A stretch of 43,018 nt of DNA from Anaerolineales bacterium (GTDB taxonomy: Bacteria > Chloroflexota > Anaerolineae > Anaerolineales > Villigracilaceae). Position 1 is the stretch's first letter; every line of letters starts with the position of its first letter. A program made the translations under genes and the position numbers. Shown piece by piece: positions 31,194-37,733 of the stretch. The DNA is taken from positions 1 through 43,018 of the forward strand of contig JAUXUL010000006.1 in NCBI GenBank assembly GCA_030680795.1, read 5' to 3'. Below the pieces are notes generated by a model. That model saw nothing but the letters and a program-made list of their open reading frames with translations, did no database searches and was not told the origin of the DNA.

Positions 31194-31580
31194 GTGCGAA
31201 ACACAATTATAGCAGCCATGCTCGGGTTGAGCGTATTCTTATCCGCATGCGGAGCAGCCAGCTCAACCCGAGCAGTGGAGGCGGTGGAAGGATATGTCAA
31301 TGCCCTTGCCAAGAAGGATGAAGTGGCGCTCGCCTCTCTCTCATGTGCGGATTGGGAATCCGATGCGATCATCGAACTAGATTCATTCCAACTTGTCACC
31401 ATCACGCTGGAGGGTTTTGCCTGCCAGCAAACAGGGACGGACGACGAATTTACCCTGGTTGACTGCCAGGGAAAAATGCTGCTCAGTTATAACGACGAAG
31501 CCCAGGAACTCGACCTTTCCACACGCACATATCAGGTCGTGGAACAAGGCAGCGACTGGCTGGTCTGCGGCGTAAGATAA
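31194..31580 (+). CDS. small lipoprotein of unknown function
   Basis: This 128-residue protein has a GTG start and a GGAGG site. The signal peptide MRNTIIAAMLGLSVFLSACG has lipobox LSAC (C19). The rest (VEGYVNALAKKDEVALASLS, then a beta-rich part ending RTYQVVEQGSDWLVCGVR) resembles small NTF2/DUF4878-like lipoprotein domains. It is exported and probably membrane-anchored. It lies between two repeat copies and ahead of the acyltransferase cluster, but membership in that cluster is uncertain. Confidence 0.75.
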   Translation: MRNTIIAAMLGLSVFLSACGAASSTRAVEAVEGYVNALAKKDEVALASLSCADWESDAIIELDSFQLVTITLEGFACQQTGTDDEFTLVDCQGKMLLSYNDEAQELDLSTRTYQVVEQGSDWLVCGVR

Positions 31581-31663: not shown

Positions 31664-31789
31664 ATGTCCTACTTGAAAAGACTCTTCTCCCGCGAAAATC
31701 TCCTTGCTCTGCTATTCTGCCTGATCCTGATCGCGCTGGTCATCTTCACAGCAGACAGCAGCCCAACCTGGATCTATCAGGGTTATTAG
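31664..31789 (+). CDS. 41-aa single-helix microprotein ending in Tyr, DltX-like partner of the MBOAT
   Basis: MSYLKRLFSRENLLALLFCL is followed by ILIALVIFTADSSP and ends TWIYQGY-stop. The protein is one basic N-terminal segment, one membrane helix (about 14-29) and a short extracytoplasmic tail with aromatic residues ending in Tyr. DltX, the partner of the MBOAT DltB, has the same size, topology and an aromatic FIYNEF-type C-terminus. The frame ends 1 nt before the MBOAT start, strongly implying co-translation. It is too short for routine gene callers. Homology to DltX is inferred from architecture, not shown. Confidence 0.72.
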   Translation: MSYLKRLFSRENLLALLFCLILIALVIFTADSSPTWIYQGY

Positions 31790-31790
31790 C

Positions 31791-33230
31791 ATGGCGATCA
31801 CTCAGATCCTGATCGCTGCCGCTGCCGCTTTCTTTTGGGGGACGGTGATGCGTGAACGCGGCAGAGCCTGGTTCCTTTTAGCCGCAAGCGTCGTTGTCAT
31901 TTTCTGGCTGCAACCCGCCCTGCCCATGCGCGGCTTTGACTTTTGGATTCCAGTTGCAACCCTCATCATCACTATTTTCAGTTGGTACATCACAGCAAAT
32001 GAAGAAGCAAGGCGCGCAGGAAAAAACCGGTTCGTCATTGCGGTGGTCGCAGGCATCGTTCTATTATTAAACCTGACCCGCTACTTTCCTGTTACACAAA
32101 TCCTGACCGCTTCACGCCCACCGCAAATTGAAATATATTTCGCCATCCTTCTTGTTTCGGGATTGGCTTTTCTCATATTAACACGGCTGGCAAAATTCAA
32201 TGCGGCTTTACTATCCATCAGTGTCATTGCTCTCATCCTTATCTTTCTTGCGATCAAAATTCCAGCGCTGACCTATTGGGTCAGTTACGGGCTGCGCGTG
32301 CTAGTTGGGCAATCGCTCACTGAAGTAAAAGCCCTTGATTTTCGCTGGCTTGGTTTTTCCTACCTTGCATTCCGCATCATCCACACCATGCGAGACCGCC
32401 AAATGGGGCGCCTGCCCGCCATTGACCTCGGCGAATACATCACCTTTGTCATATTTTTCCCCGCATTCACGGCAGGTCCGATTGACCGCATTGAAAGATT
32501 CATTCAGGACCTGCGCCGTCCCTTGATTGCGCCTGGCAATGATGATCTGCTGATTGCAGGTCAACGCTTCCTGGTTGGCTTGTTCAAAAAATTCGTGGTT
32601 GCCGATGCACTGGCTTTGATCGCCTTGAACGACACGAACGCTCTACAAGTTAACGCGGCGGGCTGGGCATGGATATTGCTCTACGCCTACACCCTGCAGA
32701 TCTATTTTGATTTTAGCGGCTACACCGACATTGCGCTTGGGACTTCCCGCTTGCTGGGGATTCATTTACCTGAGAATTTTTCCTCCCCGTATCTAAAACC
32801 AAACCTGACCCAGTTTTGGAATAACTGGCACATGACCCTGACCCAATGGTTTCGCGCTTATTTCTTTAATCCGGTCACACGCTGGCTGCGCGCGCTACGC
32901 GTGTGGAAAAGGCCTTTGCCCATGCCAATCATGATTTTGCTGACTCAAATTGCCACCATGTTATTGATCGGTTTCTGGCACGGCGTGACGTGGAATTTTG
33001 CGTTCTGGGGCCTCTGGCATGGACTGGGCTTGTTCATCCACAACCGCTGGAATGACTTGACCCGCCTCCGCGCGGCGGCTTGGGCTGTGACGCCGCTGCG
33101 TCAAACCATATTAAATGTAAGCGGCGCATTGCTCACCTTCCATTTTGTAGCGCTTGGCTGGGTGTTCTTTGCGCTATCTTCGCCTATGACTTCATGGCAG
33201 GTGATATTGAAATTATTTGGAGTCCGTTAA
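31791..33230 (+). CDS. MBOAT-family membrane O-acyltransferase (DltB/AlgI-like)
   Basis: This 479-residue protein has about eleven or more membrane helices. YFDFSGYTDIALG, FWNNWHMTLTQWFRAYFF and LIGFWHGVTWNFAFWGLWHG are the MBOAT core; H397 (FWHG) is the expected catalytic His and H410 (LWHG) lies nearby. DltB/AlgI proteins move acyl groups across the membrane to an extracellular acceptor. Neighbouring microprotein, SGNH proteins, acyl carrier protein and AMP ligase supply the rest of such a pathway. Confidence 0.93.
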   Translation: MAITQILIAAAAAFFWGTVMRERGRAWFLLAASVVVIFWLQPALPMRGFDFWIPVATLIITIFSWYITANEEARRAGKNRFVIAVVAGIVLLLNLTRYFPVTQILTASRPPQIEIYFAILLVSGLAFLILTRLAKFNAALLSISVIALILIFLAIKIPALTYWVSYGLRVLVGQSLTEVKALDFRWLGFSYLAFRIIHTMRDRQMGRLPAIDLGEYITFVIFFPAFTAGPIDRIERFIQDLRRPLIAPGNDDLLIAGQRFLVGLFKKFVVADALALIALNDTNALQVNAAGWAWILLYAYTLQIYFDFSGYTDIALGTSRLLGIHLPENFSSPYLKPNLTQFWNNWHMTLTQWFRAYFFNPVTRWLRALRVWKRPLPMPIMILLTQIATMLLIGFWHGVTWNFAFWGLWHGLGLFIHNRWNDLTRLRAAAWAVTPLRQTILNVSGALLTFHFVALGWVFFALSSPMTSWQVILKLFGVR

Positions 33231-33265
33231 TACCAGGTGACTGTCACCTTTGTTATCGACCAATT

Positions 33266-34372
33266 ATGAATCAAATAATCAAACCTCTCAACGTTCTAAT
33301 AAAAGGCTTATCCCTTTTCATCATCCTCAACTTCCTGTTTGCAGCGTGGCAGCCGAGGCTGGAACGCATATCCGCATACAACGTCGTCTTTCCTGGGCGG
33401 GAGCGATTGCCGTTTGGAGAAAAATCCGCGCAGGCTTACAACCTGAGTCTCTTTGATTTGGATGCCATGTTCGCCTCGCATGTAATTCACAGGGAAGTGA
33501 AGGCCGATGATGAATTCCGCGTCATCTTAATTGGGGATTCTTCTGTTTGGGGGACGTTGCTCAAACCAGAAGAAACGCTGGCAGGACAATTGAACGTAGC
33601 AAATCTTTCGGCATGTGGAAAAAAAGTGCGCGCCTATAATTTGGGGTATCCCACCATTTCGTTGACAAAGGATGTCATGCTCCTGTCTTTTGGAATGGAA
33701 TACGACCCCGACCTGATACTATGGATGACAACACTGGAAGCCTTCCCCATCGAGAAGCAAACTGCTTCGCCGGTAGTCGCCAAAAACGAGGAAACTCTCC
33801 ATCGTCTGGGGGGCAGGTACGGGCTTGAGGTTGAAGCGGATAATCCTGGTCTCATCCAAAAATCATTTTGGAAGAATACAATCATCGGGGATCAGCGCGC
33901 GCTTGCGGATATTATCCGCCTGCAATTATATGGCGTCATGTGGGCGGCTACCGGTGTTGACCAGATCTATCCATCTGATTATGTGCCCGCTCAAATTGAT
34001 CTTGCAGCCGATGAAAAATTTCATGAAGCAGAACCGCCTGTGCTTGACATGAAGTCACTGGCATTGAACGCGCTTGAAACGGGTGTTCGCGTGGCAGCCG
34101 AAACAGCGCTGATGATCGTCAATGAGCCGATCCTGATCAGTTCGGGCGCGAACAGCAACATCCGCTATAATTTCTTTTACCCGCGCTGGGCCTATGATCA
34201 GTACCGCGGGATGATGTCTGCGCTGAGTGAGCAGAACAACTGGAATTATGTTGATCTGTGGGACGCAATACCTGCGGATGAATTTACAAACAGCGCAATT
34301 CATCTGACACCTGAAGGTGAAGCATTGTTGGCGGAAAATCTTGTTCCGTTGATTGTGGAGATGTGTAAATAA
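33266..34372 (+). CDS. membrane-anchored SGNH/GDSL-like protein (DltD/AlgJ-type role)
   Basis: This 368-residue protein has an N-terminal membrane anchor (LIKGLSLFIILNFLFAAW). VILIGDSSVWGTLLKPEETL (S92) is SGNH block I, YDPDLILWMTTLEAFP follows, and NSAIHLTPEGEALLAENLVP carries the block V His (H346). The start at 33266 is chosen because upstream codons overlap the MBOAT gene. A GGTGACTGTCACC palindrome precedes it. By context it would complete acyl transfer to an envelope polymer. Confidence 0.85.
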   Translation: MNQIIKPLNVLIKGLSLFIILNFLFAAWQPRLERISAYNVVFPGRERLPFGEKSAQAYNLSLFDLDAMFASHVIHREVKADDEFRVILIGDSSVWGTLLKPEETLAGQLNVANLSACGKKVRAYNLGYPTISLTKDVMLLSFGMEYDPDLILWMTTLEAFPIEKQTASPVVAKNEETLHRLGGRYGLEVEADNPGLIQKSFWKNTIIGDQRALADIIRLQLYGVMWAATGVDQIYPSDYVPAQIDLAADEKFHEAEPPVLDMKSLALNALETGVRVAAETALMIVNEPILISSGANSNIRYNFFYPRWAYDQYRGMMSALSEQNNWNYVDLWDAIPADEFTNSAIHLTPEGEALLAENLVPLIVEMCK

Positions 34373-34453
34373 TTATGTCGTTGCGAGCCGCCGCTCTTGC
34401 ACTTCGGCGGCGACACTTGCGCCGTTAATTGTGGAGATGTGCAAATAATCATG
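34346..34453. repeat. repeat bracketed by a 32-bp duplication of the SGNH gene's 3' end
   Basis: 34346-34377 (gene end with stop, plus ATAATTATG) is repeated at 34422-34453 with 3 mismatches. Between them is a 44-bp TCGTTGCGAG...CACTTGCG element with a GCCGCC/GGCGGC hairpin. This is the same architecture as at the end of the mutase gene. Confidence 0.9.
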
Positions 34454-34476
34454 ACATATAAACAACAGGAGTTTGA

Positions 34477-35418
34477 ATGTTTAAGATTCGAACCGTTTTT
34501 CTATTTTTGATCATCACTAGCTTAACCGCTTGTGCGGGCGCGACGGAGGCTTCACAGCCTGAAGTTGAAGTCACCTCGCCGGGTACGGTGGTTGAGATCA
34601 CAGATACTGCGAGCGAAGCGCCAGAATTGACGGAAGCCCCAACCGCCGCGCCGCGCCCAACCCTGGCAGCGGATGAATGGAAGACTCTTCCAATCGTCCC
34701 GACGATCAGCGACATGGCGCGAGCCATCTATCAGCGCGGACTTGAAATGGGAAACGATCCAAATGCTTTTTCCAAAGTTGGTGACTGCCAGACCAGCACG
34801 GACTTCTTCCTTGTGGATTTTGATTACCCGGATAGATATGGACTGGGCGAAGAATATGCTGGCCTGCAAGCCGTCATTGATTATTACAAAGGTTCTTTTT
34901 CACGCCAAAGCCTGGCTGTCAAAGATGGATTTAATGTAGCGGCTGTGCTTTCTCCCCTGCGGGCTGACCCTAAAAAATGCGAGAAGGGCGAGAGTCCGCT
35001 AGCCTGTGAATATCGCACGCACAAACCCAGCGTGGCAATAATCAGCATGGAGACCAATTTCAACCAGCGTTCTGCCGATGATTACGGCAAGTACTTGCGC
35101 CAGATCGTGGAATACACCATATCACAGGGCATTGTGCCTGTGCTCGCCACCAAAGCGGACAACTCAGAAGGAGATTACAGCATCAATGCCGAAATCGCAA
35201 AGATCGCCAACGAATATGACATCCCCTTGTGGAATTTCTGGGCTGCGGTTGATCCGCTGCCAAATAACGGATTCGATATGGAATGGAATGACGGATTCCA
35301 TTTGTCTTTCAGCCGCAACTTCTTTGACAAGCCGAAAAATATGCTAAACGCATGGCCTTGGCGCAATCTCACTGCTTTACAGACGCTTGAGGCAGTACGA
35401 AAGGGTGTGAGTGAATAA
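34477..35418 (+). CDS. lipoprotein with SGNH-hydrolase-like domain, Cys at the nucleophile position
   Basis: This 313-residue protein has a signal peptide with lipobox LTAC (C19), then a Glu/Thr/Pro-rich linker (about 25-65), then an SGNH-like domain. The block I equivalent is SKVGDCQTS, with C104 where Ser is usual. IISMETNFN resembles block III, and WNDGFHLSF gives D272 and H275 as the catalytic dyad. It is expected at the outer face of the membrane, next to the first SGNH protein. AGGAG precedes the start. Confidence 0.75.
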   Translation: MFKIRTVFLFLIITSLTACAGATEASQPEVEVTSPGTVVEITDTASEAPELTEAPTAAPRPTLAADEWKTLPIVPTISDMARAIYQRGLEMGNDPNAFSKVGDCQTSTDFFLVDFDYPDRYGLGEEYAGLQAVIDYYKGSFSRQSLAVKDGFNVAAVLSPLRADPKKCEKGESPLACEYRTHKPSVAIISMETNFNQRSADDYGKYLRQIVEYTISQGIVPVLATKADNSEGDYSINAEIAKIANEYDIPLWNFWAAVDPLPNNGFDMEWNDGFHLSFSRNFFDKPKNMLNAWPWRNLTALQTLEAVRKGVSE

Positions 35419-35425
35419 ATTAAAA

Positions 35426-35533
35426 ATGTCGTTGCGAGGAGGGCGATTTTCCTGACGAAGCAATCTCCAAATCACAAGGAGATTGCTTCGGGCCGCGAAA
35501 ACATGCGGAACAAGAACGCCCTCGCAACGACAT
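35426..35533. repeat. ATGTCGTTGCGAG...CTCGCAACGACAT MITE-like repeat, copy 1
   Basis: Terminal inverted repeats of 13 bp enclose GAAGCAATCTCC and its complement GGAGATTGCTTCG. It lies between the lipoprotein and the acyl carrier gene. The second full copy lies at 37625-37733, and a short relative at 34378-34421. Confidence 0.9.
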
Positions 35534-35558
35534 TACTAACAAAAAAGGAAATCATCAC

Positions 35559-35804
35559 ATGACTGAAAATATTACACCTGCTCTTGCAAAATTTATTGCA
35601 GAAAAAATATTAAAACAGGCGAATAAAGTTATCAAACCCGATGAAGCCCTGATCTCCAGCGGCTTGATCGATTCTTTCAGCCTGATGGATCTGGCTTTAT
35701 TTGTTGAAGACACATTCCACGTCCGCATTGAAGATACGGAATTAAACGCTCAATCTTTTGACAACCTGAACCAGCTTTCCGAGCTGATCGCCTTCCGCCG
35801 GTAA
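35559..35804 (+). CDS. acyl carrier protein (DltC-like role)
   Basis: This 81-residue four-helix carrier domain has the phosphopantetheine serine S39 in SSGLIDSFSLMDLALFVEDT. AAGGAAA precedes the ATG. It is followed by the AMP ligase gene, which should load it. It differs from the fatty-acid synthase ACP type (DSLD/DSLE motif) and is closer to stand-alone carriers of secondary pathways. Confidence 0.92.
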   Translation: MTENITPALAKFIAEKILKQANKVIKPDEALISSGLIDSFSLMDLALFVEDTFHVRIEDTELNAQSFDNLNQLSELIAFRR

Positions 35805-35811
35805 ATAATTG

Positions 35812-35880
35812 ATCCGCAGATGCCGCAGAGAGAACAGATTGTTCAAGAAAAAATCCGTGTCACCTGCTAAATCTGCGGAT
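35812..35880. repeat. inverted repeat ATCCGCAGAT/ATCTGCGGAT
   Basis: A perfect 10-bp inverted pair (35812-35821, 35871-35880) encloses about 50 nt between the carrier and ligase genes, ending 8 nt before the ligase start. Confidence 0.75.
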
Positions 35881-35888
35881 AAAAGTTA

Positions 35889-37568
35889 ATGTCCACCTTT
35901 TCAAACCTGCTGCAACGCTCGTTTTTGGAAGTCCCTGAAAAGATCAGCATTGTTTTACAAAACGCCGGTCGAGCGGATACGCCCATCAATTATCGTCAGT
36001 TGATCCTGGGCGCAAATCGCTACGCACGAAGTCTCGCCCGCGAAGAGATAAAAGCGGGCGAGGTGGTGCTGCTCATTCTCCAACACGGAGAAGATCTGGC
36101 ATTCTCTTTTTTCGGCGCAGTTTTACATGGCGCGATTCCAGCCATCATGCCCTTTCTGACTGAGAAGCTCTCACCCGAAAAATATCGCGCCGATCTGGCT
36201 GCTCTCATTTCAATTACAAAACCAACAGCCATCATCACTTCCCCTGAATTTGAAGACGAAGCCCGCTCAGCGCTCATGCCTGGTGGCTCAGTGCGAAAAG
36301 TGATATTGACAAACAAGATTGAACCAGAGGCAATTCCCGATTTCAATTCATTGAATGGAATGAAAGCCTCGCCTGAAGATATTGTCCTTTTACAACATTC
36401 ATCAGGCACAACGGGTCTGCAAAAAGGCGTAGCTCTTTCACACCGTGCGGTACTCAATCAACTCGAAGCATACAGCAAAGCCATCCATCTTGATCCTAAA
36501 AAAGATGTCATCGTCTCATGGCTTCCGCTGTATCACGACATGGGGTTGATCGCCTGCTTCTTACTGCCTGTGCTCATGCGCGTTACCTTGGTTGAGATGT
36601 CGCCCTTCGATTGGGTGCGCGCGCCTTATCGCCTGCTGCAATCCGTTTCGCAATACAAAGGCACGCTCACATGGCTTCCAAATTTTGCGTTCAACTTTTG
36701 CGCCAACAAAATCCGCGAACGCAATCTCGAGGGCGTGGATCTTTCATCCTGGCGCGCGATCATCAATTGCTCCGAACCTGTCCATGCAGAGAGCCATCAA
36801 TTATTTGCAGAAAAATTTTCGGCCTTCGGTCTTCGTCCGCAGGCATTGCAAACCTGCTACGCCATGGCGGAAAATGTCTTCGCTGTAACCCAAAGCCGGT
36901 TGGATCAGTCACCAATTGTGGATGAGATTGACCGCGAAGTCTTCATGACTCAACGCCTCGCGACTCCGCCGGTAACTGGTCGCCCGGCGATGAAGATGAT
37001 GTCATCCGGGCATTCCCTTGCCAACATGAAAATCCGCATCGTGGACGAAAATGGGCAAGACCTGCCAGAGCGCGTGGTGGGTGAAATAAAAATGCAAAGC
37101 GATTGCATGTTGACCGAATATTACAACCGCGCCGATGCCAGCGCAGCAGCCATAAAAAATGGCTGGTATCTGACCGGTGATTACGGTTACACCGCCAATG
37201 GAGAACTTTATGTCTCCGGGCGCAAAAAGGATATGATCATCGTCGGCGGAAAAAACATCTATCCTCAGGATTTGGAAGCCCTGGCAAGCGAAGTGCGTGG
37301 TGTGCACCCGGGGCGAACGGTTGCATTTGGCATGTATGATGAAGAGGCAGGCACGGAGGAAGTTGTCATCATCACCGAGGCAGATAGCGAAGAACCCTCC
37401 GAGCACGAACTCATCGCGGACGCGATCCGCAAGCATGTCACGAAAAGTTCCGCCATAGCGCTGCGGCACGTCAAGGTGGTTGGAGAAAAATGGATCGTAA
37501 AAACCTCCAGTGGAAAGACGGCGCGTTCGGCAAATAAAGAAAAATTTATCAGGGAGCTTGAATCTTAA
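35889..37568 (+). CDS. fatty-acyl-AMP-ligase-like adenylate-forming enzyme
   Basis: This 559-residue ANL-superfamily enzyme has the P-loop SSGTTGLQKGVALSHRAVL (from residue 171), VSWLPLYHDMGLIACFLLPV and SSWRAIINCSEPVHAES. It also has GWYLTGDYGYTANGELYVSG, RKKDMIIVGGKNIYPQDLE and the catalytic C-terminal lysine K543 in KTSSGKTARS. The LPLYHDMGL and NCSEPV...FGLRPQALQTCYAMAE patterns are closer to fatty-acyl-AMP ligases than to DltA. It should activate an acyl group and load the adjacent carrier protein. Confidence 0.88.
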   Translation: MSTFSNLLQRSFLEVPEKISIVLQNAGRADTPINYRQLILGANRYARSLAREEIKAGEVVLLILQHGEDLAFSFFGAVLHGAIPAIMPFLTEKLSPEKYRADLAALISITKPTAIITSPEFEDEARSALMPGGSVRKVILTNKIEPEAIPDFNSLNGMKASPEDIVLLQHSSGTTGLQKGVALSHRAVLNQLEAYSKAIHLDPKKDVIVSWLPLYHDMGLIACFLLPVLMRVTLVEMSPFDWVRAPYRLLQSVSQYKGTLTWLPNFAFNFCANKIRERNLEGVDLSSWRAIINCSEPVHAESHQLFAEKFSAFGLRPQALQTCYAMAENVFAVTQSRLDQSPIVDEIDREVFMTQRLATPPVTGRPAMKMMSSGHSLANMKIRIVDENGQDLPERVVGEIKMQSDCMLTEYYNRADASAAAIKNGWYLTGDYGYTANGELYVSGRKKDMIIVGGKNIYPQDLEALASEVRGVHPGRTVAFGMYDEEAGTEEVVIITEADSEEPSEHELIADAIRKHVTKSSAIALRHVKVVGEKWIVKTSSGKTARSANKEKFIRELES

Positions 37569-37624: not shown

Positions 37625-37733
37625 ATGTCGTTGCGAGCGCACTTTGCGAAGCAATCCGCTTTTTTGAGCAATTTTACAGCAAATTAACCATGAGATTGCT
37701 TCGTCGGGAAGAACACCCTCCTCGCAACGACAT
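37625..37733. repeat. ATGTCGTTGCGAG...CTCGCAACGACAT MITE-like repeat, copy 2
   Basis: Same 13-bp terminal inverted repeats and internal GAAGCAATC/GATTGCTTC pair as at 35426-35533. It lies behind the ligase gene. Confidence 0.9.

Follow-up and report, generated by a model that had tools for sequence, protein, structure and literature searches.

How can a row of genes that resembles the Dlt acyl-transfer system operate with a ligase that looks like a fatty acyl-AMP ligase (FAAL) and not like DltA? This question is raised by a 43,018-nucleotide (nt) stretch of DNA, referred to here as the window, from an Anaerolineales bacterium of the Villigracilaceae (contig JAUXUL010000006.1 of assembly GCA_030680795.1). 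Six open reading frames (ORFs) follow one another on its + strand and encode, in order, a microprotein (X), an MBOAT, a membrane-anchored SGNH protein (SGNH1), an SGNH-fold lipoprotein (SGNH2), an acyl carrier protein (ACP) and the ligase. An earlier reading made from the letters of the window (the sequence-only reading) had described these six genes in this order on one strand, and every ORF is found where it had been placed; a seventh gene of the row, encoding a small lipoprotein (LP) at 31194-31580 on the + strand, had been overlooked. Pfam and NCBIfam name three of the proteins: the MBOAT, the PP-binding ACP and the AMP-binding/FAAL ligase. Through the Dlt system, other bacteria put D-alanine on their teichoic acids. 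As set out in parts of a 2025 paper on PatAB, the Dlt system combines a carrier, an MBOAT, a tyrosine-bearing microprotein and an SGNH protein (PMC12148441). We consider it probable that the gene set in the window encodes a Dlt-like transmembrane relay of acyl-tyrosine type that is charged by a FAAL instead of DltA.

An MBOAT-based scan over the contigs of 84,980 species yielded 114 confirmed relatives, and the locus counts given below come from the best 80, which are either named Chloroflexi or fall in genera that we take to belong to the Chloroflexota. The six-gene row is not a product of chance; X lies upstream of MBOAT in all 78 loci that have at least 200 nt of sequence there (75 found by a scripted scan, and L032, L052 and L067 seen in a separate inspection of the loci). 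SGNH1 follows within 4 kb downstream of MBOAT in 67 of the 72 loci with room for it. Fifty loci are long, extending at least 7.9 kb downstream; SGNH2 is present in 38 of them and the ACP-FAAL pair in 31. ACP and FAAL are separated by no more than 97 nt in 34 of 35 loci. Of the 80 loci, 31 keep X, MBOAT, SGNH1, SGNH2, ACP and FAAL in strictly this order, and many of the others end at contig edges. Among the 36 loci with a FAAL, SGNH2 is missing from three and precedes SGNH1 in one, and another is truncated ahead of X. The order is thus conserved in relatives, a check that the sequence-only reading had proposed, and Longilinea arvoryzae KOME-1 (L075) carries the full set of LP, X, MBOAT, SGNH1, SGNH2, ACP and FAAL.

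X (31664-31789, + strand) is a DltX-like microprotein of 41 residues with a single membrane span, and it ends in the hexapeptide W-I-Y-Q-G-Y (31769-31786, + strand). Apart from a Trp in place of the first Phe and, in the window, a Tyr in place of the last, this sequence fits the FxYxxF pattern described, in the available part of the PatAB paper, as the "acyl shuttle" hexapeptide of DltX and PatA (PMC12148441). Across 76 aligned rows of X, P34, W36 and Y38 are invariant, I37 and G40 are each kept in 75 and Q39 in 74. At the final position, 75 rows have Phe and the window alone has Tyr (Y41), making WIYQGF the near-invariant form among relatives; in the distant member L104, Phe replaces Trp to give FIYQGF. 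The motif ends every readable copy of X and is masked in L017. Judged from this alignment, the working tyrosine is likely Y38 (31775-31777), the third residue of the hexapeptide and the presumed acyl acceptor. The C-terminal tyrosine singled out by the sequence-only reading does exist in the window as Y41, but it is probably not the one that works.

X is under constraint at the protein level: pairwise comparison of the codons of 76 copies gives 26331 synonymous against 6566 non-synonymous single-base differences. In all 76 copies the net charge is higher at the N-terminus than at the C-terminus, and because of this excess the sequence is consistent with a C-terminus that faces outward. X has no credible match in Pfam (the best chance matches have E values of 0.03 and worse) and none in the PDB, and none of 34 X sequences matches the DltX family PF12459 at E ≤ 10. 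Profile alignment with hhalign nevertheless pairs the last 22 columns of X with those of Chloroflexota DltX at a probability of 94.5.

The MBOAT encoded directly downstream (31791-33230, + strand; PF03062, E 8.8e-17) lacks a C-terminal shuttle motif of its own. It scores 212.5 bits against the DltB equivalog TIGR04091, under the cut-off of 375. His347 (32829-32831) and His397 (32979-32981) are invariant in 79 of 79 MBOATs and align with the histidines of the DltB WNRWHM and FWHG motifs, respectively. A profile of the family finds DltB alone in the PDB at E ≤ 1 (2.4e-59 and 2.7e-59). We modelled X and MBOAT with AlphaFold2 as one fusion in which the single stop codon between them was read as Gly; the MBOAT part is predicted with a pLDDT of 86 and a pTM of 0.85, and when its Foldseek matches were re-examined DltB was best (Z 26.3 and 26.2), followed by human MBOATs at about 21.

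A built-in C-terminal motif is found in none of 79 X-linked MBOATs and none of seven Dlt MBOATs, whereas of the 13 further MBOATs sampled in the phylum 12 have a shuttle-like one, in one case with Asn for the first aromatic residue. In this sample, then, an MBOAT that lacks the motif is mostly accompanied by a microprotein encoded separately. This does not hold for L145, which shows neither motif nor microprotein, or for two Dlt-type loci in which no microprotein was found. A tree of 44 rows separates the Dlt-linked MBOATs (7, support 100/100), the other MBOATs of the phylum (13, 100/99) and the X-linked MBOATs (24, 100/99). By this tree, which was rooted at its midpoint and so does not fix which two clades are sisters, the X-linked proteins make up a third clade, distinct from both DltB and the MBOATs with a built-in motif.

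ACP (35559-35804, + strand; PF00550, E 3.2e-6) carries its phosphopantetheine serine at Ser39 (35673-35675), and the pair D38-S39 is present in 37 of 37 aligned rows. It misses both DltC models, with 21.2 bits against NF003464 (cut-off 68) and 18.5 bits against TIGR01688 (cut-off 52.35). The best solved relative of the ligase (35889-37568, + strand) is EcFAAL (3pbk, E 2.4e-69). Its best NCBIfam subfamily models are fatty acyl ligases, PRK07768 at 364.3 bits (cut-off 572) and PRK09192 at 357 bits (cut-off 600), and since these cut-offs are missed we describe it, on its sequence, as FAAL-like and not as a member of a named subfamily. Compared with five other AMP ligases of its own genome it has 19-25 extra residues at positions 335-359 (36891-36965, + strand), which we take to be the place of the FAAL-specific insertion. 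Part of the FAAL literature describes a conserved Met and Phe in a blocked coenzyme A (CoA) pocket and prolines near an alternative pocket (PMC8460268). M218, F266, P213, P84 and P88 of the ligase, invariant in 35 of 35 sequences, would be these described residues when mapped through the EcFAAL alignment.

The DltA model is not among the best 25 of the 107 NCBIfam models that match the ligase, and the best TIGR01734 match in its own genome (E 1.5e-31) is not over the DltA cut-off. We considered whether the ligase is a DltA under another name and rejected this, as FAAL models fit it better, it carries the FAAL-type insertion and no protein of its genome passes the DltA cut-off. The placement of the ligase nearer to fatty acyl-AMP ligases than to DltA, made before any database search, is upheld by the best models, the EcFAAL relationship and the insertion.

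The link between ligase and acyltransferase extends to whole genomes. Among 301 Chloroflexota genomes, 38 of them in the window's class, the MBOAT profile separates 26 at 480 bits or more from a next group at 245 bits and below, and all 26 belong to this class. SGNH1 occurs in exactly these 26 of the 38 (split over two contigs in G248), and X in 25 of them; in the other, G144, the contig stops 287 nt upstream. At a presence threshold of E 1e-60, a FAAL is found in 24 of the 26 MBOAT-positive genomes versus one of the 12 MBOAT-negative genomes of the class. In 16 of the 24, FAAL and MBOAT are no more than 10 kb apart; in the other eight they are farther from each other or on different contigs. 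The FAAL of G144 consists of two fragments on two contigs, whose ends leave linkage to MBOAT undecidable. In G255 and G028, X, MBOAT, ACP and FAAL are contiguous and SGNH1 is located elsewhere.

SGNH1 (33266-34372, + strand, its ORF open upstream to 33080) is the presumed transferase. Its GDS motif, with Ser92 (33539-33541), and His346 (34301-34303) are present in 68 of 68 aligned rows. SGNH1 and SGNH2 of the window each fall under the Lipase_GDSL_2 cut-off singly, and this family is matched at E ≤ 1 by 15 of 16 aligned SGNH1 relatives and 18 of 19 aligned SGNH2 relatives. The SGNH1 sequence has no credible relative in the PDB, and the DltD model is absent among the three Pfam families matched at E ≤ 1 by 16 SGNH1 members.

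From the gene content and order, the conserved motifs, the co-occurrence and the FAAL-type insertion that we observe, we infer the chemical steps, cargo and acceptor of a relay as follows. The substrate of FAAL would be a carboxylic acid, with a fatty acid the likeliest; the enzyme would adenylate it and load it onto the phosphopantetheine at Ser39 of ACP. At the cytoplasmic face, MBOAT would take the acyl group from ACP by means of His397 and transfer it to Tyr38 in the outward-facing hexapeptide of X, which would hand it on to Ser92 of SGNH1. SGNH1 would then esterify an acceptor at the cell surface, which may be a glycan or a glycolipid, and the lipoproteins SGNH2 and LP could assist outside, for example in acceptor binding or in editing of acyl groups. 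The Dlt logic of carrier, MBOAT, tyrosine microprotein and SGNH protein that the sequence-only reading had seen in the row is supported by the sequences, including gene order and co-occurrence.

Several observations weigh against such a relay, some of them in SGNH1 itself. Three residues before its histidine stands a Ser (S343) in all 16 aligned rows, and not an Asp; another acid may serve in place of the missing one. SGNH1 also keeps a Gly in its presumed block II and differs in this from the PatB and OatA described in part of PMC12148441. In the AlphaFold2 fusion the motif of X is not placed (residues 26-36 have a pLDDT below 50) and the one-residue tether is unfavourable, and the model gives no docking evidence for or against. 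The row is incomplete in places, with no SGNH1 inside 4 kb of MBOAT in five of the 72 loci and no SGNH2 nearby in 12 of the 50 long loci. The association of FAAL with MBOAT has a Fisher p of 7e-7 that is not corrected for ancestry.

Other gaps concern the ligase and carrier, and these speak for a rival explanation in which X, MBOAT and SGNH1 take acyl groups from acyl-CoA as PatA does and ACP-FAAL is a separate lipid pathway that only lies nearby. Neither ACP nor FAAL is found nearby in 19 of the 50 long loci. G055 and G176 are MBOAT-positive but show no FAAL at E 1e-60; in G224, FAAL and ACP are present while an X-linked MBOAT and SGNH1 are missing. The sequence-only reading had named a ligase and carrier belonging elsewhere, or a gene order lost in relatives, as what would overturn it; for the most part order and pairing are kept, with those 19 long loci standing apart. 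In G176, a one-contig genome, the cluster (L106) retains ACP even though no FAAL was found, and the carrier there may be charged by a different ligase or from another source of acyl groups. We regard the acyl-CoA explanation as improbable: FAAL accompanies MBOAT across genomes at the frequencies given above, including the eight in which the two are not neighbours, MBOAT directly adjoins ACP-FAAL in G255 and G028, and in Dlt, according to the portion of the PatAB paper concerned, the separate microprotein is found together with a carrier protein as the acyl donor (PMC12148441).

A diverged but true Dlt system, whose ligase would activate an amino acid, D-alanine or another, for attachment to a teichoic-acid-like polymer, would fit DltB as the closest solved MBOAT and the resemblance of X to DltX. 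The own genome also contains a sequence that weakly resembles the CDP-glycerol phosphotransferase family (G000:C53:59535-60278, 29.8 bits, cut-off 22.1), and such a polymer is conceivable there. The ligase, however, fits FAAL models best and has the FAAL-type insertion, the MBOAT clades are separate, and ACP and MBOAT fall under the DltC and DltB cut-offs. Moreover, the three of the 301 genomes with a DltA over the TIGR01734 cut-off (G028, G248 and G269, each a member of the family to which the window belongs) have it beside a DltB-like MBOAT match and carry the X/MBOAT/FAAL system as well. Six of eight Dlt-type loci encode a microprotein ending in FIYQGF, FIYQGY or FVYQGF, and the four of these six that were tested all pass PF12459; in G028 (L129) and G269 (L130) a microprotein at the level of Pfam DltX lies upstream of the DltB-like MBOAT, and none is seen in G248, where the contig ends. 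A diverged Dlt is therefore hard to credit as an account of the window, yet the same genomes weaken the earlier statement that this lineage is not known to make teichoic acids, DltA passing its cut-off in three genomes of the family and DltX occurring in two. We also think it rather unlikely that the relay is as proposed with a cargo other than a straight fatty acid, such as a hydroxy, branched or aromatic acid. FAAL-like sequence fixes neither chain length nor type, and the nearest solved relatives are named fatty acyl-adenylate ligases, although this says little about cargo.

The proposed FAAL-charged relay shares with Dlt a carrier as donor, an MBOAT without motif, a separate tyrosine microprotein with the shuttle hexapeptide, an SGNH protein and an arrangement of the genes in a row. 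It differs in having a FAAL-like ligase instead of DltA, an X that misses PF12459 and has Trp for the first Phe, an X-linked MBOAT in its own clade, an SGNH1 that does not match the Pfam DltD model and shares only the SGNH fold in general, and two additional lipoproteins. With PatA/PatB-type acetylation of alginate, peptidoglycan and cellulose it has in common an MBOAT, an SGNH protein and an acyl-tyrosine hexapeptide of the same kind. In those and other non-Dlt MBOAT/SGNH pathways, however, as far as part of the PatAB paper covers them, the motif is fused to the MBOAT C-terminus, carrier and DltX-like microprotein are lacking and the donor is evidently acyl-CoA (PMC12148441). Since these pathways are said to lack both components, the gene set described here is new among them, having both a carrier and a microprotein together with a ligase different from that of Dlt. 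Natural-product FAALs that work with a free-standing ACP resemble it in ligase sequence, FAAL-type insertion and adjoining ACP, whereas this cluster contains no polyketide or peptide synthase and pairs the ligase with an MBOAT/SGNH system.

The accessible part of a 2025 FAAL review makes no mention of MBOAT. Our literature search, a weak one as it left most subscription journals uncovered, found no paper joining a fatty acyl-AMP ligase and an MBOAT, nothing relevant on MBOAT in Chloroflexota and nothing on DltB with fatty acid and acyl-ACP synthetase. If the FAAL-charged relay exists, export through a tyrosine microprotein would be a general module that can be recharged with other acyl groups, and the Anaerolineae would have an unrecognised form of surface lipidation. 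A more specific picture, which we put forward tentatively, is that of a second split-shuttle system with an MBOAT clade to itself. Its microprotein tyrosine might carry long-chain fatty acyl groups across the membrane to a surface glycan or lipoglycan of Anaerolineae, and the GDC-bearing SGNH lipoprotein might act outside as an extra transferase or editor.

That lipoprotein, SGNH2 (34477-35418, + strand), has a lipobox with Cys19 and carries GDC104 in place of GDS (Cys104, 34786-34788). GDC is found in 51 of 51 aligned rows, with D272 and H275 each in 49. The AlphaFold2 model (pLDDT 84) matches the fold of TesA (1ivn; Z 14.7, root-mean-square deviation 2.8 over 164 residues), with many SGNH esterases scoring equally well. 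In the model GDC closes the first core strand, so that Cys104 occupies the position of the catalytic Ser. The earlier description as an SGNH-like lipoprotein holds for fold and lipobox, with the amendment that the nucleophile position is taken by a Cys and not a Ser. Given Cys104, D272 and H275, SGNH2 might act as a Cys-dependent enzyme or serve as a binding protein; the literature search found no precedent for an SGNH protein with a Cys nucleophile. More than one SGNH2 paralogue is present per locus in L036, L053, L054, L057 and L067, which suggests that this outer lipoprotein has diversified.

LP has 128 residues, a GTG start and a lipobox with Cys19. It is the sole wide neighbour to emerge from a clustering of neighbouring ORFs (clusters of at least five loci, in which many shadow ORFs were recognised by eye) and is present in 76 of the 80 loci. 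On the + strand and within 700 nt upstream of MBOAT it is found in 71 of the 75 loci with room; three of the remaining four have a copy at another place in the locus or on the opposite strand, and L064 has none. In more distant genomes LP is often not found beside X. It has weak NTF2/SnoaL-like similarity: out of 23 members, nine match SnoaL_3 (E values down to 2e-4) and nine match DUF4440 (down to 3.4e-4).

Two other neighbours, considered as possible clues to the acceptor, were left out of the set because they occur in only part of the loci: a PIG-L gene (13 loci) and an ORF in 18 loci that we presume to be a phytol/dolichol kinase. The 2-kb gap of L092, translated in one frame, matched no family. 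Downstream of the row in the window, a short ORF from 37812 onward (MALISLKDVSLGFGG...GLVRA*) is cut by a stop and looks like what we take to be a remnant of the start of an ABC-type ATPase. Within and just after the row, the gaps that follow SGNH1, SGNH2 and FAAL hold repeats with ATGTCGTTGCGAGG-like ends (34375-34388, 35426-35533 and 37625-37733), two of the three being inverted pairs. The repeat core GTCGTTGCGAG has 61 copies in the own genome, partly as close inverted pairs, against none for a reversed control; by their sequence, these intergenic repeats inside the gene row resemble repetitive extragenic palindromes (REP) or miniature inverted-repeat transposable elements (MITE).

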